Assembly: GCF_007751035.1 (NCBI RefSeq)
Contig: NZ_CP036433.1
Location: forward strand, 5,871,001 to 5,935,000
Direction of reading: 5' to 3'
Length of the DNA stretch: 64,000 nt
Origin: Lignipirellula cremea
GTDB taxonomy: Bacteria; Planctomycetota; Planctomycetia; Pirellulales; Pirellulaceae
The stretch's first letter is position 1; the number at the start of each line of letters is the position of its first letter. The notes below the pieces were generated by a model. It saw only the letters and a list, made by a program, of their open reading frames with translations, did no database searches and had not been told where the DNA came from. Below, piece after piece: positions 30,069 to 45,897 of the stretch. The position numbers and the translations under genes were made by a program.

Positions 30069-31883
30069 TTACTCTTCGCGCTGCCAGAGCTTGACGATTC
30101 CTTTGTCGCCGACCGTCGCCAGACTGCGGCCATCGTTAGAAATCGCCAACGATATGCTTCGCGCATCGCCCGTCGGCAACACGAAGGTCGCTTCGCCGGT
30201 TTCGGTCGACCAACCGCGGACCAAACCGTCCGCCATCGCGGCAATCAGCTCGCGACCATCGCGCGAGAACCGCAGGCAGGTCACCGCCGCGCTACCGCTC
30301 GGCCACAAGATGCTTTGTTCGCCGGATTCCGTGTCCAGAATCAACAGGCCGGTTGCGTTGCCGTAGCCGCACAACTGTCGGCCCTCATCGGACAACGCCA
30401 GGACGTGCAATTGCGAGCGAAATCGGTAACGAGCCAGTTCGCTGCCCGATTCGGCATCCCAGATAACAGTCGTGCCGTTCCAGTTGCCGGCGACGACTCG
30501 TGGGCCATTCGATGTCGCGGCGATTGCCACGCTGCCCATTTTCATGGGGATCGACCGGACCAGCGAGGTCTCCCCCGCGTCATCCACTTGCCAGATGGGC
30601 AAATAGCCCGCGTCAATGTTGGATGTTTGAGCGAGCCACCGACCGTCGTGCGTCACGGCGCAACTTCGCACCCTCCCGGCTTCGATCTTCAGTTCCGTGG
30701 AGCGGGGCGACTCCGCGTCGAGCGGCCAATACAAGACCTTGCCGCTTATGCCCAGCGCCACGAGCGCTGCGTTGGTTGGCGCAAATGCGAGACAGTCGAA
30801 CCCTCCCACCTTGTCAACCATCTGTTGCGGTTCGCCCGTGGCGGCATCCCACAGCTTGACCCGATCACCGCTGGCCGTCGCCAGTTTCGCTCCGTCATGC
30901 GAAAACGCGACTCGCGACCCCGCTCGGTGCAGCGTGTGTCGTAACCGCCAAGCGGATGATAGAGCTTCGGCCTCCAACGGCCTGGCGGATTCGGCGTCGG
31001 CGACGGCGTACTGTCCCTCGGCGACCAACACAGTCTGGCCGTCCGACTGCCGCTCGAATTGCACCTTGCCTTCTTCCAACTCAACGCGGGAATCAGAGTC
31101 GCTGGCGTACAGCCGAAACTGCGTCCCCAGCACCGTCAGCCGCGCTTGCTCGGTGATGATAACCAGTGGCCGGTCGGGCGACTGTGGGGCGGCTTCCACA
31201 TCCGCCGATCCGCGTTCGAGCCGCAAGGTCCTGGCGAACGCGTCAAATTGCTGAATATGAAGCACCGAGTCGGCGTTCAACACGACACGTGTGCCATCGA
31301 TGAGCGTCACCTCCGCAGCGCTCGCTTCACCCACATGCAGACGGTCTCCCGCGTAGAACGCCTGGGCTGAGGCGACTTTGACCAACTTCTGCCGTGCATC
31401 GGTGAGCCACACTTCACCCGCGAGCGAACTTAACGTCGCGGTTGGTTCTCCCGTCTTAGCGGATTCGTGCCTTAAAGATGGCGTCTGGAAGAAGTTGCCC
31501 ACCAGGAAAAGACCTAACGCCAGCAGTATGGCAGCCGCTGCCAGCCCGCGACCGAGAGGCCAGGCTGCTTTCGACGTTCGGATTGCAGCCGGTGTCGCCG
31601 ATGACTGACCAACAGATGACTGACCAACAGATGACTGACCAACAGATGACTGGCCAAGTGGCTGGCCAATCGATAAATCGTTCGCGGCCATGCGGGCCAG
31701 GTCCCGACCGGCCGACTCGCACACGACGTCTTGCAGCAGCGCGTCCTGCTCAACCAGTTTCCAGTAGAGGCGACGTGCCTCAGCCGACGAGCGGAACTGG
31801 GCGACCAGTTCGGCCTGGTCGGACGCCGAGAGCCGTTCGTCCAGCAACGCCTCGATCAGACTTTGCAATCGTTCGTCGTTCAT
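30069..31883 (-). CDS. FecR-like membrane regulator with C-terminal WD40-type propeller (putative anti-sigma factor)
   Basis: The product has 604 residues. Its ATG overlaps the ECF sigma stop by ATGA. Residues 1-70 resemble planctomycete anti-sigma N-termini (LIEALLDERLSASDQAELVA). Residues about 77-95 are VGQSS repeats, followed by one membrane segment at about 112-130 (LAAAAILLALGLFLVGNFF). A FecR domain follows (GDRLHVGEASAAEVTLIDGT, VLGTQFRLYASDSDSRVELE), then WD40-like blades (VAFSHDGAKLATASGDRVKL, LRFSRDGRELIAAMADGLVR, AISNDGRSLATVGDKGIVKL). Topology: N-terminus in the cytoplasm, propeller outside. Likely role: hold or release the ECF sigma factor in response to a signal in the cell envelope. 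The signal is unknown. Confidence 0.8.
   Translation of the reverse strand: MNDERLQSLIEALLDERLSASDQAELVAQFRSSAEARRLYWKLVEQDALLQDVVCESAGRDLARMAANDLSIGQPLGQSSVGQSSVGQSSVGQSSATPAAIRTSKAAWPLGRGLAAAAILLALGLFLVGNFFQTPSLRHESAKTGEPTATLSSLAGEVWLTDARQKLVKVASAQAFYAGDRLHVGEASAAEVTLIDGTRVVLNADSVLHIQQFDAFARTLRLERGSADVEAAPQSPDRPLVIITEQARLTVLGTQFRLYASDSDSRVELEEGKVQFERQSDGQTVLVAEGQYAVADAESARPLEAEALSSAWRLRHTLHRAGSRVAFSHDGAKLATASGDRVKLWDAATGEPQQMVDKVGGFDCLAFAPTNAALVALGISGKVLYWPLDAESPRSTELKIEAGRVRSCAVTHDGRWLAQTSNIDAGYLPIWQVDDAGETSLVRSIPMKMGSVAIAATSNGPRVVAGNWNGTTVIWDAESGSELARYRFRSQLHVLALSDEGRQLCGYGNATGLLILDTESGEQSILWPSGSAAVTCLRFSRDGRELIAAMADGLVRGWSTETGEATFVLPTGDARSISLAISNDGRSLATVGDKGIVKLWQREE
31601..31660. repeat. 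15-bp in-frame tandem repeat in the FecR-WD40 gene
   Basis: Three exact copies of ATGACTGACCAACAG (31601-31645) are followed by an imperfect fourth (31646-31660). On the coding strand they give GQSSV repeats in the juxtamembrane linker. As 15 bases is a whole number of codons, copy-number changes would lengthen or shorten the linker without a frameshift. Confidence 0.95.
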
Positions 31884-32413
31884 GACACTTCACCACTTGC
31901 CAGCACTTGTTGAGTACATTCACGCAAAAAAGCCCGCGCACGGGCCAGAGCAACGTGGACTGCGTTGGTCGTCCAGGCGAGCCGTTCGGCGATTTCCGGC
32001 GGACTCAGAGGCTGCTCCGCATAACGCAGATCAACAATCTCCCGGGCCCGCGGCGCTAACCGCTCGAGGCACTTCGTCAAAGCCTCCCGCCGCTGCTCCA
32101 GGAGTTGGTCGGAACCTTCCGCGGAGTCCGCCAGCAGATTGAGCAACTCCTCGTCGAACGGCAGGGGCGTCCTGCGTTGCCGCCGGTAATGCTCGAGCAC
32201 CTTGTTGCGAGCAATGCCGCGCACCCAGGCAAGAAAGTCCCCGTCCCGCCGGAAATCCGCCCCCCGTTGCTTTACCGTAAGAAAGACCTCCTGAAACACG
32301 TCATCCGCCGCCGCCCGATCCGGCACCAGTCCTCTCACAAACCCGCGCACCGCCGCTGCTTGTTGCAAAAACAACGCTTCGATGGTCGGCTGGGGTGGGT
32401 TGTTCGTGGTCAT
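31880..32413 (-). CDS. ECF RNA polymerase sigma factor
   Basis: The product has 177 residues. I use ATG 32413; a TTG immediately before is also in frame. Region 2: RGLVPDRAAADDVFQEVFLT and DFLAWVRGIARNKVLEHYRR. Region 4: LERLAPRAREIVDLRYAEQP, then PPEIAERLAWTTNAVHVALA, a helix-turn-helix. It lacks extra C-terminal domains, so it is a short ECF factor of the planctomycete/verrucomicrobial kind. Its stop overlaps the start of the FecR-WD40 gene by ATGA, the usual arrangement for a sigma/anti-sigma pair. It heads the run of PSD1-DUF1501 cassettes downstream, which makes them candidate targets. Confidence 0.9.
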   Translation of the reverse strand: MTTNNPPQPTIEALFLQQAAAVRGFVRGLVPDRAAADDVFQEVFLTVKQRGADFRRDGDFLAWVRGIARNKVLEHYRRQRRTPLPFDEELLNLLADSAEGSDQLLEQRREALTKCLERLAPRAREIVDLRYAEQPLSPPEIAERLAWTTNAVHVALARARAFLRECTQQVLASGEVS

Positions 32414-32725
32414 CAATAATCATTGACGTAAACGACCGAAAACTTAGCAACGATTTTTCGAATGCCCGCCGATCGCGACGCAGCTCAGCAGCGGCCGCAC
32501 CGTGCTTTCGAACGGTCTGGAGTCATCAGCCGACAAAGCATTCGCGCAGGCCGCGAGCCGCCCGGTGGCCCGCGCCACGCGACATCGGACGGCCCGCGCC
32601 CTGCCGCTAACAGCCGCTCTCGCGTTGTGATCCGTGACGCGTAAGCGGCCAGGCTTTGAAAACTCCAGGTTTCGTGGAACGGCCCGGTGCCTTACGGCCC
32701 ACGGCTCACGAGTTTTGAAAAGAGC
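32414..32725. other. Intergenic region: ECF promoter zone, conserved box and two inverted repeats
   Basis: No gene is seen. About 20 bases before the ECF ATG, 32434-32460 carries the box shared with 21454-21480. At about 32530-32600, GAGCCGCCCGGTGGCCCGC and ATCGGACGGCCCGCGCC form a degenerate copy of the 48743-48816 repeat. At 32651-32725, GCTTTGAAAACTCC and GAGTTTTGAAAAGAGC form the ends of an imperfect inverted repeat directly after the DUF1552 stop, a plausible terminator for 32726-34120. Confidence 0.5.
32434..32460 (-). promoter_or_regulatory. Candidate ECF-operon promoter or operator box
   Basis: On the minus strand the box reads TTCGAAAAATCGTTGC then TAAGTTTTCGG, ending about 20 bases before ATG 32413. 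A close copy lies upstream of DUF1501 19974-21311, and a shorter match (GCTAAGTATAG then TAGTCGG) lies at 59594-59611 upstream of another ECF gene. Position and recurrence suggest autoregulation, but no promoter elements can be assigned with confidence. Confidence 0.3.
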
Positions 32726-34120
32726 CTATCCAAGCAGCTCTTCCAGCGGGCCGTGCTGGTCGAGATCCTTCAGGTTGGGGTCGGGCGTGCCGAAGCTGGT
32801 TCGCTGCGAGCCGGCCAGTTGCAGCAACGTGACGTACATGTTGGACGTGGTGCGGTGGCCTTTGTGGCCGTAGCCGGGGTAATCGACGTAGCGGCCGGTC
32901 TTCAGCTTTCCGCCCATGTTGCCGATCACCAGCATCGGCCATTCCCAGCAGCGGCTGTGGTGGGCTTCCGCCCCGTCGCTCAGATAAACAATCACCGTGT
33001 TGTCCAGCATCGTGCCGTCGCCCTCGGGCACGGCCTGGAGTTTACGGACCAGGCCTGCGATCAGGTCCATGTGGTAGCGGCGAATGATGTTGTACAACTC
33101 GTCCCACTTCTTGTCCTTGAAGCTCTTGCCGTGGCCGATCGAGTGTTTGTCGAGGTTGATGCCCAGACCGTTAAACGTCACGTCGAAGTCGCGGATGCCG
33201 GCGGCGGACGACAGCGTCAGCACATTGGTCAAGCCGCAGATCAACGCCGCCGCGCCGATGTCGAACTGGGCGTCGAGCCGATCGGTTTCGACTTCCGACG
33301 TGTACTTGTCGGTCGGGGTCGGGCCTTTCTCGCGCAGCGTGTGCTCGATCTCGTTCAACCGGCTCTGGCGGTTGCGGAGTGTCTCGAACGATTCGAGATA
33401 CGCGTCGAATTGGTCGCGCTCCTGGCCGACCAGTTCGCCTTGCACTTTCTTGATGTCGCGGCGGAGGAAGTCGAGCAGGTTGTTGCGGGCGGCGAATTCT
33501 TCCTTGGCCGCCCCGTTGGCGACGCTGCCGAACAGGGCCGCGTAAGCCTGGTCCGGTTTGCAGATCGTCGGCAGCGGGCGATCCTTTTCCAGCGCCGAGA
33601 TGTTGTAGATAACGTTGTTTTCCAGCCGCTTCGACATGCCCAGGCCGAGATGCGGGAAGATGCCCGGCAGCGTCTTGGCCAGCGCCCCGTCGATGGTTTC
33701 GTCCAGCACGGCCATGCTCTCGCCGCCGGTCCCGCGGCCACCGCCGAATGCACCCAGCGCCATAAAGTTGTTCGAGTGCCCGCCGCCGCAGACTCGACCC
33801 GACAAGCCTTCGACGATCGTCAACTTATCTTTCCACGGCTTGAGTGGTTCGAGTGAGAATTGCAGCTCTTTGTCGGCCAGCGGGATATCGACGAATTCCG
33901 TCGGCCCGCCCGGCCGCTGGTCGCGGGGTTTACGTTCGATGCCGACCGGTGAAATCTGTTCCGGCCGAACGCCATTGCTTTCCACGACGAACACAAACCG
34001 CTTGGGCATCGTTGCCGTTCCGGCCGCTTGGGCTTCCAGCCGAGAAAGGATCGGCGAAAGGACCAGCGTTCCGGCGCCGAGTGAAAGGCCTTTGAGTGCG
34101 TCGCGTCGATGAATCGTCAT
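32726..34120 (-). CDS. DUF1552 (HXXSHH family) secreted protein, AEAHHSRCWEW subgroup
   Basis: The product has 464 residues from ATG 34120 with AAGGAG seven bases upstream. The leader MTIHRRDALKGLSLGAGTLV carries Tat-like HRRDALK. Family words: FVFVVESNGVRPEQISPVGI, SGRVCGGGHSNNFMALGAFG, DKHSIGHGKS and VIVYLSDGAEAHHSRCWEW, ending NLKDLDQHGPLEELLG. It is a close paralogue of 11779-13164. Both are partners of DUF1588-type haem genes, but here a PQQ-type propeller gene has been placed between the partners. A short stub of a similar gene lies at 4080-4127. Confidence 0.9.
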   Translation of the reverse strand: MTIHRRDALKGLSLGAGTLVLSPILSRLEAQAAGTATMPKRFVFVVESNGVRPEQISPVGIERKPRDQRPGGPTEFVDIPLADKELQFSLEPLKPWKDKLTIVEGLSGRVCGGGHSNNFMALGAFGGGRGTGGESMAVLDETIDGALAKTLPGIFPHLGLGMSKRLENNVIYNISALEKDRPLPTICKPDQAYAALFGSVANGAAKEEFAARNNLLDFLRRDIKKVQGELVGQERDQFDAYLESFETLRNRQSRLNEIEHTLREKGPTPTDKYTSEVETDRLDAQFDIGAAALICGLTNVLTLSSAAGIRDFDVTFNGLGINLDKHSIGHGKSFKDKKWDELYNIIRRYHMDLIAGLVRKLQAVPEGDGTMLDNTVIVYLSDGAEAHHSRCWEWPMLVIGNMGGKLKTGRYVDYPGYGHKGHRTTSNMYVTLLQLAGSQRTSFGTPDPNLKDLDQHGPLEELLG

Positions 34121-34137: not shown

Positions 34138-34214
34138 TAGGACAGGCTTCCAGCCTGTCTCGGAATTTGAAAATACTTGTTGGTTTTCAATGGCAGGCCG
34201 GAAGCCTGTCCTAC
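34138..34214. repeat. GTAGGACAGGCTTCC inverted repeat that supplies a stop codon
   Basis: The left arm (34138-34158, GTAGGACAGGCTTCCAGCC) and right arm (34192-34214, GCCGGAAGCCTGTCCTAC) are inverse copies around a 33-base AT-richer loop. The right arm runs into 34211-34213, which is the TAG stop of the propeller gene. A degenerate copy is seen at about 40290-40310 and a related element inside 38563-40206. Confidence 0.85.
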
Positions 34215-36334
34215 GGTTTTTGCTTCCTTAAGTCGTAGCAGTAGATCGCGTCCTGGCCCCGGACGAACAGCCGGCCATCGACCAGCGGGTAGACGATCGG
34301 CTGATTGGCGTAGGCCGTGGTCCACGTGTGCGGCGGTCGCCATTGGAATTCGGCGCCGACGTGGTGGCCAATCGAACCCTCGGTCTGAACTGCCGGGAAA
34401 GCTCGAAAGTTTCCGGGGTTGGCGTCCAGCATCAGGAACGACTGGCTGCCGTGGCGTCCTTCTGGCTGGATGATGAATCGGCCGGCTGCGAGGAACGCCG
34501 TCTGTGTGCGCGCTCCGCCGACGTTTTCCACTCGCGCCACAGTCTCGCCCGTCGCGAGCTTCAAACAAATCGCTTCGCGGGCTGCCGAGACGTAGAGGTT
34601 CTCGCCGTCGCTGGCCATGCCGATCGTGTCGATGATCGGCGCCAGCGGTTTGGTCGTCCACGCCGGTTTCAATCCGTCGGCCGCGATGTGGTAGGCGTGC
34701 AGGACGGCCAGCCCGTCGTTCTCGCCAGGTTTGACGTTCTCCAGATGCAGCGAATAGCCGACCAGCAAATCGCCGACCAGCAGCGGAAACGCGTAATCGA
34801 TCAGGTACGAAACCGGCTGCCGCCAAATGATCTCGCCACTTGCCGCGTCGAGCGCCACCGCGAAGTTCTGTTTCTTCTCGTGGTCGCGATCGCTGGCGAT
34901 GACCAGCGACTTGTCACCACCGGTCCACGGCAACAGCGACGTGCGATGCCACAACGGACGCTCCCACCTTTTCGTTCCCGTTTTCGCGTCCACGCCATGC
35001 ACGCGGCCCGATGCGGCGAACACGACGACGCCGTCGACCAGCACGGGGCTCGGTGCGTGGCAGTCGATGCCGCCCTGCGTAGTGACGTGCGCTTCCGGTT
35101 GAGCATCGGGGTATTCCCACAACACTTTTCCGGTCTCCTCATCGACGGCGTACATCCGGCCGGTCGTGCCGGGCTGATAGACGACTCCTCCGGCCACCAG
35201 CGCTACGGGAAAATGTCCGCGGTGTTTGTGCGTCTGAAAGTTGTTGCCGCGCTGCGGGAACGTCGTCCGCCACAGTGTCCGGCCGGTCGCGGCGTCCATG
35301 CACACGAGCACCTCATCGGCCTCGGTGCGGAAGTGATTGAGCACTGCGTCCTGCTGGTACGATCGTTGAGGAAAAAGTTCGCGGGCTTTGGCCAGCAACT
35401 CGGCTTCACCCGTGAAAGGCTTCCCGATGAAGTTTTCGAGGTACGGCTTGGACTGCCCAACTGGACCGCGCGGCGTATAGAAAAACTGATAGACACAGCC
35501 ATCGGCCACGACGGGCGACGCTGACCCACCGCCATTGCCGGCTCGTCCAGCCCGGTCGGGATAGCGGTTGTCGGGCGCCGAACCGTATCCGGTGGGAATG
35601 GTCGCTTCGCTTTTCCAGACGGGCCGCGCGAGCGAGAGGTCGTCTATCAACTTCGCATCGCCGGCAGGCCCGGCAAAAAGAAAACCATCGCCGTAGTAGT
35701 GCGGCCAGTCTTCTCCCTTGGCGAGCGTGTCGCCTGCCGTTTCATCTGCGGTGAGAATGCGGCCGGTGAGCTTGCCGCCGAACCGGATCCGCTCGCCGGC
35801 ATCGTCTACGAACCCGACGGAAAACGTGCCGTTGATGTCATTGAGAGCGGGGCGCGAGCCGACTGGCGCGTCGGGATCGCGCGGTCGCTCCGTGACCGCG
35901 GAAGTCGTGGTTTTGCGAGCATCGTTATCGCCAACCACGGCATCGATCGAGTAACTGAAGTAGTGGACGTTTTTGTCTCCCCAGTGCCGATTGGTTCGGC
36001 CGTCCAGTCCGCCGCGGAGTTTATCGCCCTCGAGCTTCAGCGAAGCCGCGTCGAGCCATACCACTCGCCCGCCCGCCAGCGCCGGATGCACAAACCAGGC
36101 AACGACCACTTTACCGTCCCGCAAGCCGAGAAATAACGGCAAGTCGAAACGATCTTTCTTCTTACTGCCGAAATCGGTGCCCCCTTGTTCGAGTTGCAGC
36201 CAGAGCGTCCAGTACTCGCCAGACAACGACGTGGTGGCGACCGGCTCCGCCTCAGCAGCCGTCAGCGCTGTAACGCCGACGCACCAGACCGACAAAGCAA
36301 CGGCGCATACGAAGACTGTATTTCGATAATTCAT
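34211..36334 (-). CDS. Secreted PQQ-binding-like beta-propeller protein
   Basis: The product has 707 residues from ATG 36334 with a signal peptide (VFVCAVALSVWCVGVTALTA, cleavage near AEA). The first 210 residues resemble an uncharacterised beta-sandwich leader (SGEYWTLWLQLEQGGTDFG). The rest shows PQQ-type blades: VCMDAATGRTLWRTTFPQRG, YAVDEETGKVLWEYPDAQPE, VHGVDAKTGTKRWERPLW and ALDAASGEIIWRQPVSYLI. Whether it binds PQQ or is only a scaffold cannot be told. It is placed between the DUF1588 haem gene (36373-38562) and its DUF1552 partner (32726-34120), suggesting a third component in this cassette. Its stop codon lies inside a repeat. Confidence 0.82.
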   Translation of the reverse strand: MNYRNTVFVCAVALSVWCVGVTALTAAEAEPVATTSLSGEYWTLWLQLEQGGTDFGSKKKDRFDLPLFLGLRDGKVVVAWFVHPALAGGRVVWLDAASLKLEGDKLRGGLDGRTNRHWGDKNVHYFSYSIDAVVGDNDARKTTTSAVTERPRDPDAPVGSRPALNDINGTFSVGFVDDAGERIRFGGKLTGRILTADETAGDTLAKGEDWPHYYGDGFLFAGPAGDAKLIDDLSLARPVWKSEATIPTGYGSAPDNRYPDRAGRAGNGGGSASPVVADGCVYQFFYTPRGPVGQSKPYLENFIGKPFTGEAELLAKARELFPQRSYQQDAVLNHFRTEADEVLVCMDAATGRTLWRTTFPQRGNNFQTHKHRGHFPVALVAGGVVYQPGTTGRMYAVDEETGKVLWEYPDAQPEAHVTTQGGIDCHAPSPVLVDGVVVFAASGRVHGVDAKTGTKRWERPLWHRTSLLPWTGGDKSLVIASDRDHEKKQNFAVALDAASGEIIWRQPVSYLIDYAFPLLVGDLLVGYSLHLENVKPGENDGLAVLHAYHIAADGLKPAWTTKPLAPIIDTIGMASDGENLYVSAAREAICLKLATGETVARVENVGGARTQTAFLAAGRFIIQPEGRHGSQSFLMLDANPGNFRAFPAVQTEGSIGHHVGAEFQWRPPHTWTTAYANQPIVYPLVDGRLFVRGQDAIYCYDLRKQKP

Positions 36335-36372: not shown

Positions 36373-38562
36373 TTAATTCGCGGTCTTGACCCGATACAAG
36401 AACGACTCACTGGTCACCAGCGCCGCGATCAGCGCCTTCATGCTGCCGCCACTGTCGCGATAGGCCCGGTGGGCCGCTTGCAGGGACGCGGCGTCGCCCG
36501 GAGTTTCGTTGCGGCCGAGCCAGTAGCGGAAAGCGTGTCGGATGAAGACCTGCTCGACCCGCTCCGACGCCGCCAGCTTGTGCATGAGCTCGACCGCGCC
36601 GCTGACGTCGCCGTCCACGCGAGTGTCGCCAACAAACTCGACGCCGCCCGAAATGTCAGCCGGAACCTTTCGCACGACCGGTCCCAGCGGTTTGCCTTTG
36701 GGATCGACATTTTTCGCCGTGGCTTCGGGGTCCAGCACCCGTTCCGTCACGCGGAAGCGGCCGAAGTGGTCGTACATCTCCAGCGGATAGCCGACGCGGT
36801 TCATCAGCCTGTGACACTGCCAGCAGTACTGTTCCTGCGTGACCGCCATCCGCTCGCGTAATGTCTTTTCCGGCGCAATCGGGAGTTGGGCATCGACCGT
36901 GATGGGAATATCAGGAACGACGTTGCCCAGCAGCCGCTCGCGGACCCACTTGCCGCGATGGATCACGTCGTTGTCGTCGCTCTTGGACACGGCGACCAGC
37001 CACGCGGGCTGAGTCAAAATGCCGGCCCGTTGATTCTTGGGCAGTTCGATCGGCTGGTCCGCCGTCCATTTCCAGTCCGGCGGCAGACCGTATGCCAGAT
37101 GAACCGCCTCATTGCGCGCCTTGAACCCCTGTTGTTTGTTACGGTCCCAGCGGAAGTTGACGAAGGCCTTGTTGGTGGTTAGCAGTTCGCGGAACACTTC
37201 TTTGTCTTGCTCGACGATCCCCTCGATCAGACGATCGGTGTCGGCGACCAATTCGCGCGGATAATGCTCGACCGGCTCGTCGGGGTTTTTGAAGATCTCC
37301 GTCGCCTGCTCGTACCCGAAATACTCGCGGAAGAACCGCAGGATGCGCGGCTTCTCGAATTTGGGGTCGTCGAGCAACTTACGCACAGCGGCCTCGACCC
37401 CGTCGCGCGAATCGAGCTTGCCCGCATCGGCATCGGCCAGCAGCCACGATTCCGGCCGCCGGTCGGTCAGCGCGTAGGTGACGGCGAAAGCGATCTCGCG
37501 CGGGGCCAGCCGCACGAGTCCGCGATCGTCGGGCGGTCCCGCGCCGCGTTCGCTGCGCAGCACGGCTTCGGGCAAGAGCAGCACGGCGGCCAGCGTGAAG
37601 CGGACGCCCGTCGCGCGTCCAGCGTCCTTGATGTTCTGATTCATCAGCGCTTTGAAGTTTGCCAATTCCTCGTCCGTCGGCTGGCGGCGGATGATGTAGT
37701 CGAACAGGTATTTGATCGCCGTTTCGACATCGGTTTCACTGGCCGGGTCCATTTCATCGTACAGCCTCACAAGCTGATTCGGCGCGCCGCGTTCCGATTT
37801 GGCGACGCCGCCTTCCATCTTATGCCACGTCAGCCGGTCGACGATCAGCAGCGCGTTGCCGATTAGCTGGCTGGTCGTCGGTTCGTCGAGCTTCGGGGCA
37901 CCCATGTCCTTGAACGTCGCGCCTCCGGCCGGCGAGAACGACTGGCCCACGTCGGCCCCGCGGCCGACGTCGCGGGTGAACGCTTCATAAATCTCCGGGC
38001 TGAGCCGCCGGACACGCGTCGGCGTCTCGAGCGAACCGGTCGGCTTGCCGCCGAACAGCAGGGCGTGATCGACAACGTTGCCGTTGTGATATTCCTCGCG
38101 CACGGCGACGTGCTTGCCCGACCGTTTCATCTCGGCCTTAATCCATTCAATCGCGGCGGCCTTGGCTTCACCGCCGGGCTGAGGTTCGTCTTTGGGAGGC
38201 ATCTTGCCCAGCGAAAGCTGAGTCAGCACCACCGCCCAGCGAGCGGCACTGGTCGTGCCTTTCATGTCCGGCGGCAGCGTCTGCAGGTTAAGTTCCTTCT
38301 CGGCCAAGTCCGCCCCGTGGCACTGCCCACAGTATTTAGCCAACATGGGTTTTACTGAGCGGTCGAACTCGGCCTGGCTTTCGTCGAACGAAGCGAACTT
38401 CAGTTCAGCGGCGGGGCAGGAAGTCACAAATGACAAACAACAAATCCCAAACAAGCACCAAGTACCAATGCTTAAGGCTCGATACAGCAGACCGCCATAT
38501 GTTGTCATCTTTGGAGTTTTACGCATTGTGATTCGTTTGAGATTGATGTTTGCAATATGCAT
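36373..38562 (-). CDS. Haem c protein, PSCyt1-DUF1592-DUF1588 type, possible lipoprotein
   Basis: The product has 729 residues from ATG 38562, which directly follows the TAG of the caspase/FGE gene; ATG 38526 (MRKTPKM) is an alternative. The signal region LFGICCLSFVTSC ends in a lipobox-like VTSC, so it may be lipid-anchored, unlike its paralogue. The haem motifs are CGQCH (78-82) and CWQCH near 560-570. Shared with 13228-15543: FSPAGGATFKDMGAP, VRLAPREIAFAVTYALTDRR, RILRFFREYFGYEQA and RVEQVFIRHAFRYWLGRNET. The DNA just inside the signal region has AAATGACAAACAACAAATCCC, a different repeat from the GGATTTCG family. Partner DUF1552: 32726-34120, beyond the propeller gene. Confidence 0.88.
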   Translation of the reverse strand: MHIANINLKRITMRKTPKMTTYGGLLYRALSIGTWCLFGICCLSFVTSCPAAELKFASFDESQAEFDRSVKPMLAKYCGQCHGADLAEKELNLQTLPPDMKGTTSAARWAVVLTQLSLGKMPPKDEPQPGGEAKAAAIEWIKAEMKRSGKHVAVREEYHNGNVVDHALLFGGKPTGSLETPTRVRRLSPEIYEAFTRDVGRGADVGQSFSPAGGATFKDMGAPKLDEPTTSQLIGNALLIVDRLTWHKMEGGVAKSERGAPNQLVRLYDEMDPASETDVETAIKYLFDYIIRRQPTDEELANFKALMNQNIKDAGRATGVRFTLAAVLLLPEAVLRSERGAGPPDDRGLVRLAPREIAFAVTYALTDRRPESWLLADADAGKLDSRDGVEAAVRKLLDDPKFEKPRILRFFREYFGYEQATEIFKNPDEPVEHYPRELVADTDRLIEGIVEQDKEVFRELLTTNKAFVNFRWDRNKQQGFKARNEAVHLAYGLPPDWKWTADQPIELPKNQRAGILTQPAWLVAVSKSDDNDVIHRGKWVRERLLGNVVPDIPITVDAQLPIAPEKTLRERMAVTQEQYCWQCHRLMNRVGYPLEMYDHFGRFRVTERVLDPEATAKNVDPKGKPLGPVVRKVPADISGGVEFVGDTRVDGDVSGAVELMHKLAASERVEQVFIRHAFRYWLGRNETPGDAASLQAAHRAYRDSGGSMKALIAALVTSESFLYRVKTAN

Positions 38563-40206
38563 CTACTCTTTCCTCAGCACCAACCGGAACCCGATATAGT
38601 CCCGTTGCTTGCCGGCGAATTCGGAGTTGCGGAACGCCGACGCGCAATACTCCGCCGTGCTGCACCACGCTCCGCCGCGGATGACGCCGTCGGCGGAGGC
38701 CTCTTTGATCTGCTGATCGACCAGCGGGTTGACTCCGCCCACCAACCGCGGCAGGTAACGGTCCGCGCACCATTCGGCGACATTGCCGTGCATGTCGTGC
38801 AAGCCCCACGCGTTCGGCTGATAACTGCCAACCGGAGCCAGAGATTTGCCCATACCGTCGTCGAAGCGTCCGTCGGCAAACTGCATCGCGCCGTCATCGG
38901 CCAGCAGACTTTTGTCCGCGTAGTTGGCAAAGCAATGAAGCTGCTCGGCGTCGTCGCCGAACGAAAACCGCGTCGTTGATCCGGCCCGGCAGGCGTACTC
39001 CCATTCGGCTTCGGTCGGCAGGGCGTATTCCCAGTCGCCCGGCAAGCGGCCCGCTTTCTGCTCGGCCTTGGTGAGCATGTCGATGAACTTCTTCGGATTC
39101 TCGTGCGAAAGGTTGTGCATTGGAGCGAGCTTGGCCTTGGTGATCGACGGGTACGGTCCCCAACCGGCTCGTTGACCCTCGATCTGAGCGGCTTCGTACT
39201 TGGCCATCCAGAAGCCCTTCGGCAACGTCACCTCGACCGGTTTGGCATCGCCGAACTCCGTCTGGTCCGCGCCGCGGCTGCCCATCGTGAATTTGCCGGG
39301 CGGGCACCAGCAAAAGACCATGCCGCTGGCGTTGATCCACTGCTGGCCGGGATGCGAGCCCTCGCGCGGCTGCTCGGAATCGAGGAACGTGCGGTTGTCA
39401 AAAGCCGGCCACGAGGCAATCGTGGGACGGGCATTCTTGCCCGTCCCGGAGTCGACAGCCAAGGATGCCTGTCCTACGACAAACCACGGCTTCTGTTTGC
39501 CGCCGCTTTGCTGTTCGACGTCGTTGCCGACCGCTTGTAGCATTTTTCCAATCGACTCGCGGCCTTGCGAAAGATGTTTTGCCAACGCCGCGGCCAGTTT
39601 CGACGGTTCATTTAACTCGCCGGCCGTGCTTCCCGGCTGGGCGGCCATCAGCACCAGCATGTCGTCCGCCAACTCCGTCGCTTCGACCGCCGCCAACCCG
39701 CCGGGTTCATTCTCCCGCTCCGCGAGAAACGGATTGGGCCGGGCGGCGTCGACGACGAGAAAATTCGCACCGGCCGACGAGTGATCGGCCAGCAGCTTGA
39801 CGACGTCCGCCAAAGCTAGCGATTCCCGTTCGGGGCTGCGGGGATCGGCCGGCTTTCCCGCTCCCTGTAGGTGATTCCACCATGCGCCCTTCGAGTTGTA
39901 CGTCTGATACTGCCCGCCGAGCCCGGCAAAGTACAGAACCGCAACGCCGCGGGTGACCGTGCTGCGGGCGAACTGTTCGACGGTGTTCTTCAATTCCTTT
40001 ACCGGTACGTTCTCGGCCAGCGTCACCCGAAAGCCTTCCCGCCGCAGCGCCTCGCTCACCGCCGCTGCATCCGCCTTCACGTGTGAAAGCTGATGTTCGC
40101 CATAGTCAAAATTGGCCACGACCAGCGCCGTCCGGTCCTGCGCCGACGCAACAGCAGCGAACAGTGCGATCAATGTTGAAATGCTAATTCGTTTCAATCC
40201 AGTCAT
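38563..40206 (-). CDS. Catalytically incomplete caspase-like domain fused to an FGE-sulfatase (SUMF1) domain
   Basis: The product has 547 residues from ATG 40206; a TTG two codons upstream has a better-spaced AAGGA. A signal peptide (STLIALFAAVASA) precedes a caspase-type domain: TALVVANFDYGEHQLSHVKA, ADAAAVSEALRREGFRVTLA, VAVLYFAGLGGQYQ and ANFLVVDAARPNP. In active family members these last two read YFxGHG and DACRxNP, so both the catalytic His and Cys are replaced (Leu and Ala). From about residue 285 an FGE-sulfatase domain follows: FCWCPPGKFTMGS, LPTEAEWEYACRAG, WGLHDMHGNVAEWC and VIRGGAWCSTAEYCASAFRN. An in-frame hairpin repeat codes for the linker. It probably acts as an envelope binding or scaffold protein. 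Confidence 0.8.
   Translation of the reverse strand: MTGLKRISISTLIALFAAVASAQDRTALVVANFDYGEHQLSHVKADAAAVSEALRREGFRVTLAENVPVKELKNTVEQFARSTVTRGVAVLYFAGLGGQYQTYNSKGAWWNHLQGAGKPADPRSPERESLALADVVKLLADHSSAGANFLVVDAARPNPFLAERENEPGGLAAVEATELADDMLVLMAAQPGSTAGELNEPSKLAAALAKHLSQGRESIGKMLQAVGNDVEQQSGGKQKPWFVVGQASLAVDSGTGKNARPTIASWPAFDNRTFLDSEQPREGSHPGQQWINASGMVFCWCPPGKFTMGSRGADQTEFGDAKPVEVTLPKGFWMAKYEAAQIEGQRAGWGPYPSITKAKLAPMHNLSHENPKKFIDMLTKAEQKAGRLPGDWEYALPTEAEWEYACRAGSTTRFSFGDDAEQLHCFANYADKSLLADDGAMQFADGRFDDGMGKSLAPVGSYQPNAWGLHDMHGNVAEWCADRYLPRLVGGVNPLVDQQIKEASADGVIRGGAWCSTAEYCASAFRNSEFAGKQRDYIGFRLVLRKE
39424..39477. repeat. In-frame hairpin repeat within the caspase/FGE gene
   Basis: GGGACGGGCA-TTCT-TGCCCGTCCC is a perfect 10-base-stem hairpin (39424-39447). 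Next to it, GACAGCCAAGGATGCC and TGTCCTAC (39454-39475) resemble the GTAGGACAGG repeat at 34138-34214. The coding strand gives VGQASLAVDSGTGKNARPT between the two domains, so the linker was made, or lengthened, by repeat DNA. Confidence 0.75.
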
Positions 40207-40325
40207 GACCAAACGGTTTTCCTTGCTGGCGGCGATTCATCCCACTACTAATCCCGTACGGCTGCCAAACCTGCCTGCAATATTTGGAAAATGTGGGATA
40301 GGCTTCCAGCAGCCCTTTTCATGTT

Positions 40326-41630
40326 CTACACCTCCGACAGCGGTTCTTTGGCGTCGCCAAATTGATCGAGCCGCACGTTCATCTTGTCCATCATGCTGAG
40401 GTACAGCCGGCACATCTGCCGGTCTGGTTTGCCGAGATAGTCGAGGTTTTGCCCGCCCTTAATTCGCCCGCCGCCACCGCCCAACATGACGACCGGCAGT
40501 TGGTTTGCATCGTGATTGCCGTGGAGCATGCTTGAGCACAACATCAGCATCGAATTGTCGAGCAGCGTGCGATCACCTTCCTGGATCGAATCCATTCTGC
40601 GGGCGATGTAGGCCACCTGTTCCAGGAAGAACTGGTTGACCTTCAACCAGTCGGCCGAATCGCTGTGCGACAGCAGATGGTGGATCATGTAGTCCACGTT
40701 CAAGTGCGGAAACCGCAGCGTGCCGTGGTCATTGTTCAGCTTGAGCGTACAGACGCGAGTGGTGTCGGTTTGGAACGCCAGCACGAGGATGTCGCACATG
40801 AGTCTCATGTGTTCGACAATGTCTTGCGGATAACCGTCCTTGGGCCGCGGGATGTTGGGCTCGGTCAACGTCGGCCGCCAGCCCTGCAGTTCCCCGCGCT
40901 GGCCCGCGTTCTTGATCCGCTGCTCGACTTCGCGAACCGAATTCAGATACTCGTCGAGCTTTTGCTGGTCGCGGCGGCTGATGTCGCGGCGGAAGTCGTT
41001 GGCGTCCTCCAGCACGGCATCGAGGACGCTTTTGTCGCCACGCTGGGCGCGGTCTTTGAACAACTGATCGAAAGCGAGAGCCGGGTAGACTTCCAGCGGA
41101 GTCGGCGTCGTCGGGCTGCTCCACGAGATGTGCGAGCTGTAGAGCATCGAGTAATTCTTGTGAACCGACGGGTTCGCCTTTTCACAGCCCAATACCATGC
41201 TCGGCACTTTCGTCTGGTGCCCGATCCGCTGCGCGACGATCTGGTCGACGCTGGTGCCGCTGCGGATCGTGCCTCCGGCCGCCAACGGCGCACCGGAGAG
41301 CAGGTTGCCGGTTTGCGAACTGTGAATGTTGCCCTTCAGCGCTTCGGCGTTGTAGAGCCCGCGGATGAAAACCATCTGTTCGCGGAAGTCGTTCAGCGGT
41401 GCTAGGACCTTGCCGAGTTCCATCGACTTACCTTCACCCTTGGCCCACCACTCGTGTTTGTGGAAGCCGCAACCAGCGAAGAGGATTGCCAGCCGCGTCG
41501 GAGCCTGGCTGGCTGTGTTCGTGGTAGCGCTGTCATCGCCCCACACACGCAGCGATTCCATCCAAGGCAGCGCCATGCTGACGCCGATTCCGCGGAGCAT
41601 CGTGCGACGGGAGAGTTGATAGGTGGTCAT
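40326..41630 (-). CDS. DUF1552 (HXXSHH family) secreted protein, GNH-type subgroup
   Basis: The product has 434 residues. ATG 41630 is chosen (GGAG eight bases before, leader MTTYQLSRRTMLRGIGVSMA with Tat-like SRRTMLR); the frame extends 13 codons further without support. Motifs: LAILFAGCGFHKHEWWAKGE, IHHLLSHSDSADWL (an HxxSH word as in the family name), LMLCSSMLHGNHDANQLPVV and MLGGGGGRIKGG. The GNH word and overall plan match 4175-5521. It follows the 1383-residue DUF1592 gene, with an inverted repeat in the gap, and precedes the caspase/FGE gene. Probably exported folded; reaction unknown. Confidence 0.9.
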   Translation of the reverse strand: MTTYQLSRRTMLRGIGVSMALPWMESLRVWGDDSATTNTASQAPTRLAILFAGCGFHKHEWWAKGEGKSMELGKVLAPLNDFREQMVFIRGLYNAEALKGNIHSSQTGNLLSGAPLAAGGTIRSGTSVDQIVAQRIGHQTKVPSMVLGCEKANPSVHKNYSMLYSSHISWSSPTTPTPLEVYPALAFDQLFKDRAQRGDKSVLDAVLEDANDFRRDISRRDQQKLDEYLNSVREVEQRIKNAGQRGELQGWRPTLTEPNIPRPKDGYPQDIVEHMRLMCDILVLAFQTDTTRVCTLKLNNDHGTLRFPHLNVDYMIHHLLSHSDSADWLKVNQFFLEQVAYIARRMDSIQEGDRTLLDNSMLMLCSSMLHGNHDANQLPVVMLGGGGGRIKGGQNLDYLGKPDRQMCRLYLSMMDKMNVRLDQFGDAKEPLSEV

Positions 41631-41666
41631 CCTTTTTTCTCCGGTAGTGGTTGTGTGTGTAGGGCA

Positions 41667-41740
41667 CACTAGCCCGACGCGCGAGCGCGCGAGCGAGGGA
41701 CGATGCGAGGCAATTCTCTCGCTGGCGCGTCGGGCTGGTG
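41667..41740. repeat. GCCCGACGCGCCAGCGAGGG-family inverted repeat
   Basis: The left arm (from CACTAGCCCGACGCGCGAGC to GCGAGGGA, 41667-41700) and right arm (TCTCTCGCTGGCGCGTCGGG to GCTGGTG, 41715-41740) are inverse copies. The left arm has an internal duplication of GCGCGAGC. It lies between the DUF1592 stop and the DUF1552 start. Other copies: 60428-60505, 61817-61899, 63348-63425, and a worn one near 11735-11776. Confidence 0.85.
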
Positions 41741-41745
41741 TTCAA

Positions 41746-44700
41746 TCAGTCATCCGTATTTTGCCTTCCTCTTATCTCGCGAAATTGCCGACTGCTGACG
41801 ATCATTTCGACAGCCACGCTGAAGCGGTAATCATTCTCCGCGAGCTTGGCCATAGTGTTATCAATCAACGGCTCATCCGAGAGCTGAATCTCACGCCCCA
41901 GGGAATAGCCGAGCAGCTTGCGGCAAAACTGCCGTACGACATCATCGCGGCGGTCCTTCCGGAGATAGTCGCGCAAACCCTGGATGCCCTCGATTTCCTG
42001 GCCGTCGGGGAGTTTTGTTTTGGTGTCTACCGCCTGGGGTCGCAGACGGCCGATGGCATCGTATTGCTCCAGAGCGAAACCGTATGGGTCAATCCGGGCG
42101 TGGCACTTGGCGCAGGCCGCAACCGAACTGTGCTTTTCGATCAACTGCCGGGCCGTCAGCCCGCTGGGCACTTCATCCGGCAAATCAGGGACGTTGGCGG
42201 GCGGTCGTGGCAATCGTTCGCCGAGCAGCGTTTCGAACACCCAATTGCCGCGCAGAATCGGACTGGTGCGCGACGCCCCGGATTGGCTGGCCAATACGGT
42301 CGCCATGCCCAGAACGCCGCCGCGCCCTTTTTCACGGACGCCGTCAACTCGTCGCCACTGCGGTCCACCCACGCCGCCGATGCCGTAGTGACTCGCCAGC
42401 GCTTCGTTCAGGAACGTGTGATCGGCGTCGAGCAACGCCAGAATCGAACCGTCGTTGCGAAACATGTCTTCAAAGAACTGCACGGTCTCCTCGTACATAT
42501 CGCCGCGCAGCTTTGCGAATTCGGGATAGAGTTTTTCGTTCTTGTCATCGTTCTGGTCGAAATCGCGAACGTGCAGCCATTGGCAGGCAAACTGAATCGC
42601 CAGCCGCCGCGTGCGAGGGTCGTCCAACATGCGGCGAGTCTGTTCGACGAGCGTCCGATCCTCGGTTAGCGTCCCGGCCAGCGCCACGCGCCGCAGCTCT
42701 TCATCCGGCATCGACGACCACAGGAAATAGCTCAGCCGGTTCGCCAATTCCCGGCCCGAAACCGGCGCGGCCTCCTCGCCCGGTGCGGGCTGTTCTTTGC
42801 GATAGAGAAACGCTGGCGACGTCAGCACCCGCGCGATCGTCAAGCGGATCGCTTCCTCGTGCGGAATCTCACTGTCGCGCAGTTGTTGATACAGACCGCG
42901 GAGGCCCTGCTGTTCGGAATCGGTTAGCGGACGACGCCAGGCGCGATCGGCAAACTCCACCACCGCTTTGACATGCACCGGTTCGATCGTGACGAGCCGC
43001 CGTCGAAAAGCGTCCGCTCGATCGTTCACCGGTTTTACGTACGGCGCCCAAGCCTTGACCAGGTCCGGGCGATCCTGAGTGGCGAATTCCCGAATTTGCT
43101 CGAAAGCGACTTGATACTTCAGCGGTTCGCGAGCCACGTAAAACAATTCGTCCCACAGCCGATCGAGCTCGGCGGCCTGCCGATCGTCCAGCATCAACCG
43201 TCTCAGATAATCGTCCTCGCGGTGAAACAGCGTCAGCGTGACAACCTGATCGACCGGCACGATGCGGGCGTAACACAGGGCCGGTGGAAACAGGTTGCAG
43301 AACTGACTGACCGGCCCCTCGATCCGCTCGTGTGCCGCGCTCCCCTCGCGAACCAGGATCGGCTCGCTGGCCGAGACGTTCAAGGCGGCCGGCCTGGACG
43401 CCAGTACTCGCACCTGAACCGTGCCGTCGAAGCCGTGTTTGGCGTCCAACTCGGCCGTGCCGACCAGTTCGCGGTCCTTGGCCAGCTCCGCCGGAACCCG
43501 AAATTCGATGACCTCGGGCGCCCGAACGACAAGATCCGCCGCATCGACGGCGTGTCCCAGCGGGTGACGGCCAAAGCGATCGCCTGGTTCCAAATCCTTG
43601 ACGAAGCTCGGCAGATCGACGGGCACGGAAAGTGTACGAAGCTGTCGCTGCAGCAAAGCGTCGGGCGAGTTTGCATCGTCCGGCGTTGCGCCCGTGGCCA
43701 AGGCCTGAACCCGCCGCGCTAATTCTTTTCGCATTTCCGTATCCTGTTCGGCGAGCCATTGTGCGAGTACCGAACCCGGCGGCACGGTGACAATGGGCGC
43801 ACCACCTTGGTGAACTTTCGCCATTTCGCCCTGGTAGAAATGCCAGGTGGTCTGATTGCCGTGGCTGTCCTCGTGTGGATTGCCGGCGTGTAGATTGGGT
43901 GAAACGTCCTTTGCCAGATCCCAGACCCGTTTTGCGCCGCTGGCCTCGCTGATGACGAGCGTGATGGATGTCAGGTCACAGGTATGTTCGCGGTTTCTCG
44001 GCCCAATCAGAAATGACAACAATTCTCCATTGCGAACTGCAACGGTTGTCGGCGTCATCGTGGCCGAACCGCGCACTTCGTACTCGCCGTTCCACAGCGT
44101 TCCCGTCTTGCCGGCTGTGCGATGCTGCAGCAGCCATTCTGCTCCGTTGCCACACGTGAAATGAGCGTCGGCGATACTTGCCTCGACACGCACGACACCG
44201 TCAATCGGACTTTGCCAACCGACCGCCGCATAATGGGTCGGAGTTGGATGAACCACCACTGAGTGCGCCTTCGCCAGGCCTGGAATGTTCTCATTTTTAT
44301 CCGACGAGTTTGCGACCACCGTCGGGAGCGAATCCGGCGTGTCTGGTGCCCAGCCGGTGATCCCCTGCCGGCTGTTGGTCTTCTTGGTGAGGTGCCCGTC
44401 AACCTTCACGGCACTGCTGCGGCCGATGGCCAGATAGTCCAGCCACACCTTGAGCGTTTCCGCATCGACGTTGTGTGCCGTGGCAACTCGCTGGAGTACA
44501 GGGTTCAGCCGCTCCTGGTCGCCTAAAGGCTGGACTCCAACTTCGGCAGCGGCTGCGAGGTAGCTGGCGGTTTGGCCAAGCATCTTGAGCCGCTGCTGGT
44601 CGATACGCTGCTGCAATCCCGCCACATCCCGCAATGGCAACGGGGGGTGCCCGCCACCTTCTAAACGCAGATTCTTCCACACGACGTAGTCGCCGTCGTT

Positions 44701-45897
44701 CCCGTCACCCGCATCACCCGTGGCGAGATAGAAAACGACGTCCTTGCCGTCCGTCCCAGTGGGCAGCTTCCATTTGAAATCCTGCCGCGTTGCGACGAGT
44801 TTCTGAACGCCAACCGCTTCCATCCACCGGGGCGGACCGCCTTCACGGCCAATGTGCCCGATCGAATTGAACTTCCACAGCTTCTCTTGTACCTGGCCGA
44901 TTTCAGCCACCAGCTTCGACGGGTCGTTCGATTCCGTATTACGCCATCGCTCCCGCAGACCGCCGAGCAGCGTGCCATCATCCGGCTTGTCCGCTGACAG
45001 AGTTTGCCACAGCGTACGCAAGTATTTGGCATTCAAGCCGCGCTCTTTCGCCAGGGCTTCGATAGTTTTCGTGCCGCTCGTCAGCGCCTCACGTTCAGCA
45101 AGCGTTGCCGCCAAATACCTGGCCAGCGGAAGCCGGCCGCCTTGGTTCGTAGTGAACTGGATGTCTTGCAGGTTCACGGCCGTACCGCCGCTGTCATCCG
45201 TGAATTGGCGATAGAACGCCTGAATGCGGGCCAACAGCTCATCGGTCTGATCCCGCTCTGTCGTGTAAGGGGAAAAGCGGATTCCTTCTGGCGTGAGCAC
45301 TGCGTGAGCCGCGACTTCTTTCGCGGCGTCGAGGTACTTCGTCACCAATGCGGGCGACATTCCCTGAGCCGCGCCGGAGTTTGTGAATCCTTCGCCCGCC
45401 GCGCCATCCACGGGAAACTCGCGCGTCGGATCAAGCGACGACACCCCGTTCAGATCGCGCACCGTGTAGTTGTATTCGGCGTTGTTCAGTCGCCGCAGCA
45501 CCAGCGGACCGGGATCGCCCGCGCGCGCCTGAGCCTCGCTTTTCAGAAAGCCGCGTACCCACGTCTCTAACCGACTTCGCTCGTCATCCGTCGGTTGCTT
45601 CGCATCCTTGGGCGGCATCTGACGACTGCGGAGCATCTCGCGGACTTTCAGCCAAACCTTCGGCTGCCGCCGCACGTCCGCCATCGTCTTCAGTCCGGCC
45701 AAATCAATCTCGGCTTCAGCCTCCTCGCCCGAGTGACACTCGTGACAGTAGGCTTTCAACAGGGGCACGATAACGGGTTTATATCGCTGCTCGATTTCTT
45801 TCGCTTGCGTTGTGCCCTCGTCGGCACGGAGTGACGCTGCGGCAAGCATCATTGCGAGAGCAACTAAGAAGCAATGCAGTCGGTAGGAGTGGATCAT
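41746..45897 (-). CDS. Giant secreted haem c protein, PSCyt1-DUF1587-insert-DUF1595-DUF1592-DUF1588-DUF1585
   Basis: The product has 1383 residues from ATG 45897 with signal peptide FLVALAMMLAAASLRA. The haem motif CHECH is at 51-55, then RQMPPKDAKQP. DUF1587: VLRRLNNAEYNYTVRDLNGV. An insert of roughly 500 residues (about 230-760) follows, with beta-rich stretches such as DVVFYLATGDAGDGNDGDYV and WYHFYQGEM-like DNA around TTWHFYQGEMAKVHQGG; it looks like sugar-binding or sandwich folds but is not recognised. Then AWRRPLTDSEQQGLRGLYQQ (DUF1595), RLSYFLWSSMPDEELRRVAL (DUF1592), CAKCHARIDPYGFALEQYDA (about 1262, DUF1588) and CRKLLGYSLGREIQLSDEPL (DUF1585). Partner DUF1552: 40326-41630. It is the longest gene in the window. 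Confidence 0.88.
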   Translation of the reverse strand: MIHSYRLHCFLVALAMMLAAASLRADEGTTQAKEIEQRYKPVIVPLLKAYCHECHSGEEAEAEIDLAGLKTMADVRRQPKVWLKVREMLRSRQMPPKDAKQPTDDERSRLETWVRGFLKSEAQARAGDPGPLVLRRLNNAEYNYTVRDLNGVSSLDPTREFPVDGAAGEGFTNSGAAQGMSPALVTKYLDAAKEVAAHAVLTPEGIRFSPYTTERDQTDELLARIQAFYRQFTDDSGGTAVNLQDIQFTTNQGGRLPLARYLAATLAEREALTSGTKTIEALAKERGLNAKYLRTLWQTLSADKPDDGTLLGGLRERWRNTESNDPSKLVAEIGQVQEKLWKFNSIGHIGREGGPPRWMEAVGVQKLVATRQDFKWKLPTGTDGKDVVFYLATGDAGDGNDGDYVVWKNLRLEGGGHPPLPLRDVAGLQQRIDQQRLKMLGQTASYLAAAAEVGVQPLGDQERLNPVLQRVATAHNVDAETLKVWLDYLAIGRSSAVKVDGHLTKKTNSRQGITGWAPDTPDSLPTVVANSSDKNENIPGLAKAHSVVVHPTPTHYAAVGWQSPIDGVVRVEASIADAHFTCGNGAEWLLQHRTAGKTGTLWNGEYEVRGSATMTPTTVAVRNGELLSFLIGPRNREHTCDLTSITLVISEASGAKRVWDLAKDVSPNLHAGNPHEDSHGNQTTWHFYQGEMAKVHQGGAPIVTVPPGSVLAQWLAEQDTEMRKELARRVQALATGATPDDANSPDALLQRQLRTLSVPVDLPSFVKDLEPGDRFGRHPLGHAVDAADLVVRAPEVIEFRVPAELAKDRELVGTAELDAKHGFDGTVQVRVLASRPAALNVSASEPILVREGSAAHERIEGPVSQFCNLFPPALCYARIVPVDQVVTLTLFHREDDYLRRLMLDDRQAAELDRLWDELFYVAREPLKYQVAFEQIREFATQDRPDLVKAWAPYVKPVNDRADAFRRRLVTIEPVHVKAVVEFADRAWRRPLTDSEQQGLRGLYQQLRDSEIPHEEAIRLTIARVLTSPAFLYRKEQPAPGEEAAPVSGRELANRLSYFLWSSMPDEELRRVALAGTLTEDRTLVEQTRRMLDDPRTRRLAIQFACQWLHVRDFDQNDDKNEKLYPEFAKLRGDMYEETVQFFEDMFRNDGSILALLDADHTFLNEALASHYGIGGVGGPQWRRVDGVREKGRGGVLGMATVLASQSGASRTSPILRGNWVFETLLGERLPRPPANVPDLPDEVPSGLTARQLIEKHSSVAACAKCHARIDPYGFALEQYDAIGRLRPQAVDTKTKLPDGQEIEGIQGLRDYLRKDRRDDVVRQFCRKLLGYSLGREIQLSDEPLIDNTMAKLAENDYRFSVAVEMIVSSRQFREIRGRQNTDD

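Follow-up and report, generated by a model that had tools for sequence, protein, structure and literature searches.

A pseudo-caspase–FGE fusion linked to PSD-cytochrome/DUF1552 gene cassettes in Planctomycetota and Verrucomicrobiota

Bacterial proteins with a p20 caspase fold and a substituted His-Cys dyad have been described as pseudo-orthocaspases (Klemencic 2019, PMC6426788; for SyOC, PMC7889975); they account for 858 of 9,994 orthocaspases, occur mostly in Alphaproteobacteria and Cyanobacteria, and have Tyr-Ser as their commonest dyad (PMC6426788). Fusions of a metacaspase with an FGE-sulfatase domain are also on record, with 33 cases in the survey by Asplund-Samuelsson (2012, PMC3501461); the survey also mentions one such fusion from Trichodesmium without an intact dyad, and gives the dyad as conserved in only 64% of Planctomycetes metacaspases. 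PorK/GldK, secreted components of the type IX secretion ring, have an FGE fold that lacks both catalytic Cys residues, and in PorK this fold acts as a docking hub through the old substrate groove (PMC12421860). For the PSCyt/PSD families of Planctomycetes and Verrucomicrobia, the accessible part of PMC5615132 describes a PSCyt3-type gene beside a conserved family of unknown genes, and reports that nothing is known of the role of the PSD/PSCyt and DUF1552 proteins.

The locus described here, in a window of 64,000 nucleotides from Lignipirellula cremea (the whole stretch that was analysed), resembles each of these in turn: its central gene encodes a p20 caspase fold with a substituted dyad, joined to an FGE-sulfatase domain in the architecture of the metacaspase fusions, lacking the catalytic Cys pair of FGE as PorK does, and lying beside a PSCyt3-type gene (Table 1). 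Pseudo-orthocaspases, caspase-FGE fusions, frequent loss of the dyad in Planctomycetes and the placement of PSCyt/PSD genes beside unknown genes are thus already known. No mention was found in the pseudo-orthocaspase literature (PMC6426788, PMC7889975) of a clade that carries an FGE fusion and is associated with PSD/DUF1552 genes; the accessible part of PMC3501461 does not mention a PSD/DUF1552 cassette for the metacaspase-FGE fusions, nor does that of PMC5615132 mention a caspase-FGE protein as a third gene. No publication joining DUF1552, DUF1588 or PSCyt with a caspase was found in a search that covered mostly open-access literature. The sequence-only reading had called its proposal new; within the literature searched this holds for the tie between the pseudo-caspase–FGE fusion and the PSD/DUF1552b cassette, but not for the two kinds of protein, which had been described before (PMC6426788, PMC3501461).

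Table 1. Features of the fusion locus, in positions of the window.
Feature	Position	Strand	Basis or remark
Pseudo-caspase–FGE fusion gene	38563..40206	minus	start ATG at 40206
Peptidase_C14 (caspase-like) domain, residues 27-245, without Cys	39478..40134	minus	Pfam
Catalytic His position, codon reads Leu98	39919..39921	minus	alignment to GHG motif
Catalytic Cys position, codon reads Ala157	39742..39744	minus	alignment to DACR motif
FGE/C-type-lectin-fold domain, residues 284-548	38569..39363	minus	Pfam and fold comparison
CSTAEYC of the WCSTAEYC motif: C517, S518 (first FGE copper Cys position), C523 (second)	38644..38664	minus	alignment
PSD/PSCyt protein (PSCyt1-PSD5-PSD4-PSCyt3/DUF1588-PSD2), two CxxCH haem motifs, core partner	36373..38562	minus	Pfam; ORF abuts fusion gene
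PQQ/BamB-like beta-propeller gene, between PSD and DUF1552b	34211..36334	minus	present at some, not all, related loci
DUF1552b protein, RR near start (Tat-like), alkaline-phosphatase-like fold, core partner	32726..34120	minus	Pfam and model
DUF1552a gene of neighbouring PSD/DUF1552 pair, upstream of fusion	40326..41669	minus	Pfam
Large PSD/PSCyt protein of 1383 aa, forming a pair with DUF1552a	41746..45897	minus	Pfam

The fusion protein and its two active sites

The fusion is encoded by an intact reading frame of 549 codons on the minus strand (38563 to 40212, with a TTG start, in the mechanical ORF call). Pfam identifies Peptidase_C14 (E 3e-21; 76.5 bits against a cut-off of 21.4) and, at residues 352-545, FGE-sulfatase (E 1e-31; 111 bits against a cut-off of 23.3); the N-terminus, judged by eye, is Sec-like, suggesting that the protein is secreted and would reside in the periplasm. 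The region had been read from the sequence as a secreted fusion of a caspase-like with an FGE-type domain at 38563-40206, embedded between a DUF1552 and a DUF1588 gene, and this agrees with the Pfam matches, with DUF1552 upstream and PSCyt3/DUF1588 directly downstream. The AlphaFold2 model of the protein, built on a 22-sequence alignment, has a mean pLDDT of 82.6.

The N-terminal half is a caspase homologue both by its profile score, which lies above the curated cut-off, and by its predicted fold, which superposes on caspase-7 and on MALT1 with Z 21.9 each (matches to caspases and MALT1 lie at about 21-22). Its active-site geometry was assessed by sequence alignment, in which YFAGLGGQ corresponds to GHG and VVDAARPNP to DACR; Leu98 and Ala157 take the places of the catalytic His and Cys, as had been claimed from the hallmark positions AGLGG and VDAARPNP. 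The half thus lacks the dyad of an active peptidase and falls within the definition of a pseudo-orthocaspase, a p20 domain with at least one dyad residue substituted (PMC6426788). Since residues 1-250 contain no Cys at all, cysteine-peptidase chemistry is impossible in this caspase half. A shifted His-Cys pair, the alternative raised in the sequence-only reading, is excluded by this lack of Cys together with the absence, across the family alignment, of any other conserved His or Cys column in the caspase half.

The C-terminal half has the FGE-sulfatase fold by profile and by the predicted model, which matches FGE structures with Z about 23-24, TvpA of Treponema denticola with Z 28.3 (2y3c; rmsd 2.3 over 220 residues, the closest solved fold), PvdO with 27.0 and PorK with 24.2. 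PorK also gives the best PDB sequence matches to the protein, but has ring-forming insertions of its own and other partners. True FGE carries its active site at Cys336/Cys341, or Cys272/Cys277 in the S. coelicolor enzyme (PMC4505483); here the copper-binding Cys pair five residues apart is incomplete, with only the second (C523) present and Ser518, invariant in 25 aligned relatives, as the equivalent of the first. The two Cys of the WCSTAEYC motif (C517, C523) are indeed spaced as CX5C, one residue further apart than in FGE, as had been noticed. In the partners searched, which were the DUF1552b and PSD proteins from 25 cassettes, neither CXPXR nor SXPXR is present as a conserved motif. This absence, together with the incomplete copper pair, leaves FGly maturation of the neighbours unsupported; of the earlier suggestion of a binding or maturation factor, binding stays plausible.

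A family of pseudo-fusions beside one cassette type

Relatives were collected by a protein search of the same genome (three further fusions, L002, L003 and L004, and many FGE-only loci), by searches of relatives and of the class (adding G019, G034, G420 and G343), by scanning GTDB with aligned N-terminal halves (23 loci, from Planctomycetota and Verrucomicrobiota), and by a phylum-wide profile search (adding two from G535 and one each from G680 and G614); a search of a plasmid collection gave only weak full-length relatives, at 26%. With duplicates removed, 30 distinct pseudo-fusions from Planctomycetota and Verrucomicrobiota have a readable active site. As to whether the dyad is lost each time, none of the 30 keeps both residues; the Cys is retained in nine, all of which lack the His, and the His in one (L155 of G535; L162:18207-19622), which reads GHA and has Pro at the Cys position. 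Ala occupies the Cys position in the fusion of the window and in the two relatives closest to it. In a group with a shortened domain (L004, L021a, L060-L062, L146, L155 and L157), gaps in the Cys column make the alignment there uncertain. The contig of L155 carries a second cassette with a Leu/Ala member; the fusions L054, L055 and L056 have an additional C-terminal region of about 200 residues beyond the FGE domain; and L049, from a contig titled Klebsiella pneumoniae that looks like mislabelled Verrucomicrobiota, is nearly identical to the fusion of the Verrucomicrobia locus L051.

The ordinary caspase-FGE fusions examined behave differently: they keep the dyad, and no PSD/DUF1552 cassette was found in their flanks. 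In 17 of 17 caspase-type controls outside the cassette clade (four from the pattern scan, L063a-c and L064; six from the same order, taken as best Pfam matches, a selection that favours active members; and seven from the phylum search), both His and Cys are present; most of these are FGE fusions, the FGE domain not being established for L147, L149 and L151. No DUF1552b/PSD cassette is found near any of the 17 within the flanking sequence covered, which for some of them is short; the flank of L129 shows a PSD-like match that is both short and weak (34.8%, E 5e-11).

A PSD gene, a DUF1552b gene or both adjoin the fusion in all 28 members with enough flank, so that the link with DUF1552/DUF1588 cassettes, raised as a question from the sequence, recurs at every informative locus; in the remaining two of the 30 (L048, L157) the contig breaks off on the side expected to carry the cassette. 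The genes occur in three orders (fusion-PSD-DUF1552b, DUF1552b-fusion-PSD and PSD-DUF1552b-fusion), with four-base overlaps of predicted ORFs at L042, L044, L045, L047, L055 and L056. Every complete PSD partner has two CxxCH motifs, and the DUF1552b partners have an invariant RR at the start. The DUF1552b model (mean pLDDT 70.8) indicates an alkaline-phosphatase-like fold, with its best match to PafA (Z 15.0, rmsd 3.9 over 269 residues) and many sulfatases and NPPs at Z 13-15, in line with the earlier assignment of a neighbour to the alkaline-phosphatase clan; Foldseek alone gave zero matches for this model at E <= 0.001. Beside the cassette, at 30069-32416 of the window, a gene for an ECF-type sigma factor precedes an anti-sigma-like gene of FecR/WD40 type, and related pairs are found near the cassettes in L023 and L040.

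The genome (9.57 Mb) contains 87 matches to DUF1552 (PF07586), a very large paralogue expansion. Of its 27 FGE loci, eight have a DUF1552 gene no more than 2.5 kb away, against 1.6 expected, a number reached in 3 of 4000 shifts; these shifts, together with the recurrence in distant taxa, rule out chance adjacency to an abundant gene family. About twenty other DUF1552b-type genes of the genome, most of them beside a PSD gene, are without a fusion, and the fusion is thus accessory rather than an essential subunit of such pairs. FGE-fold genes without a caspase half also occur beside PSD/DUF1552 pairs (L030, L031, L136, L137, L133, L134 and L059), the pairs being of both the DUF1552a and the DUF1552b type.

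In a tree built from the caspase half without the two columns of the dyad, one branch (support 100/99) separates the pseudo-fusions from the controls; as a single clade, their cassette linkage and dyad loss count as one old event, not as 28. On the 35-row tree the His state needs one change and the Cys state four, and L155, found later, adds a further His change. In the tree of the FGE half, L133 and L134, which are FGE-only genes of cassettes, form the sister group of the pseudo-fusions (joint group 99/95), and the FGE-only L059 groups inside the clade with the shortened members (100/99). The FGE half is thus the constant part and the caspase half the one that erodes; to judge from these trees, the latter has probably been lost at least once. 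Distances in the fusion correlate with those in DUF1552b (r 0.87) and in PSD (r 0.92), with none of 5000 permutations as high for the two pairs tested; across the three proteins r is 0.87-0.93, to which shared organismal ancestry contributes. Between the fusion in the window and its 65% paralogue L002, dN/dS values are 0.195/1.25 for the caspase half and 0.264/1.105 for the FGE half, with dS near saturation; dN is thus well below dS in both, and the caspase half is constrained though catalytically dead. A pseudogene is ruled out by the intact reading frame together with dN below dS.

A putative accessory subunit

We consider it about an even chance (roughly 0.5) that the fusion serves a single type of PSD-cytochrome/DUF1552b pair as its dedicated accessory subunit, secreted and non-catalytic, and acts by docking or ligand binding. 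The FGE-fold (C-type-lectin-like) half would be the constant module of this subunit, most likely docking onto the PSD cytochrome, the DUF1552b protein or both in the periplasm, or else presenting a ligand; the old substrate groove of FGE may provide the contact surface, as in PorK, the type IX secretion ring component. The caspase half, a descendant of a peptidase that would no longer catalyse, would be at most a second binding module or a spacer, shortened or absent in some lineages.

The main rival is that the FGE fold works as an enzyme of another kind, in which case a PvdO- or EgtB-like oxidation or a metal-dependent modification would act on PSD, on DUF1552b or on their substrate, with the caspase half as a passenger. 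FGE folds can host such other chemistry, as in PvdO and EgtB; PvdO is the second closest solved fold, NCBIfam returns PvdO, EgtB and SenA, and most columns conserved across the clade lie in the FGE half, including C303, S518 and C523. The NCBIfam scores are, however, all far below the curated cut-offs, and both the Ser at the first copper position throughout and the lack of a conserved CXPXR/SXPXR in the partners speak against this role, so that we regard it as unlikely. That the caspase half is instead an inert remnant, slowly disappearing while only the FGE half matters, would fit its few clade-wide conserved columns, its shortening in the group of L004, L021a and L060-L062, and the FGE-only L059 nested in that group; its fold is nevertheless predicted with high confidence, and within the group of the fusion in the window its dN (against L002) is far below dS and lower than that of the FGE half, which makes this rather improbable.

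Three further readings are less likely still. The fusion might regulate or decoy an active caspase of the same cell, as cFLIP does for caspase-8, or belong to a death programme as proposed for SyOC, a pseudo-orthocaspase that affects survival of oxidative stress (PMC7889975), and three other Peptidase_C14 genes are present in the genome; these lie outside the cassette, though, the Sec-like N-terminus suggests a location outside the cytoplasm, and it is cytochrome and phosphatase-fold genes that are linked at every informative locus, so that such a role is very unlikely. Residual or altered peptidase activity, conceivable for the nine members with a Cys at the catalytic position, is harder still to credit, since the His is missing in all of them, the fusion in the window shares Ala at that position with the two members closest to it, and its own caspase half is free of Cys. 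The least probable reading is that of a DGR target, or of an immune sensor with a lectin-type variable domain: the closest solved fold, TvpA, is a DGR variable protein and, within conflict systems, FGE-type domains figure among the known targets of DGRs (PMC10907252), but, unlike for TvpA, no template repeat is seen in the genome for the last 638 bases of the fusion gene, where the sole long near-copy of the 3' end is a 72% paralogue and other matches are short.

If the accessory subunit is taken one step further, the fusion might be a dedicated assembly or ligand-recognition subunit of a hitherto unrecognised periplasmic complex between the diheme PSD cytochrome and the Tat-exported DUF1552 enzyme of alkaline-phosphatase fold, so that in Planctomycetota and Verrucomicrobiota a dead peptidase and a dead FGE would together form the scaffold on which hydrolysis is linked to redox chemistry; this we advance tentatively, as a possible but rather doubtful extension. 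The PSD/PSCyt and DUF1552 families have undergone huge expansion in Planctomycetota, and a fusion that keeps to one PSD/DUF1552 subtype and co-varies with it would offer pull-down work a soluble bait and would limit which pairs may form a complex. It would also be a clean example of a protein whose protease domain and FGE fold have both been retained after their chemistry was lost.
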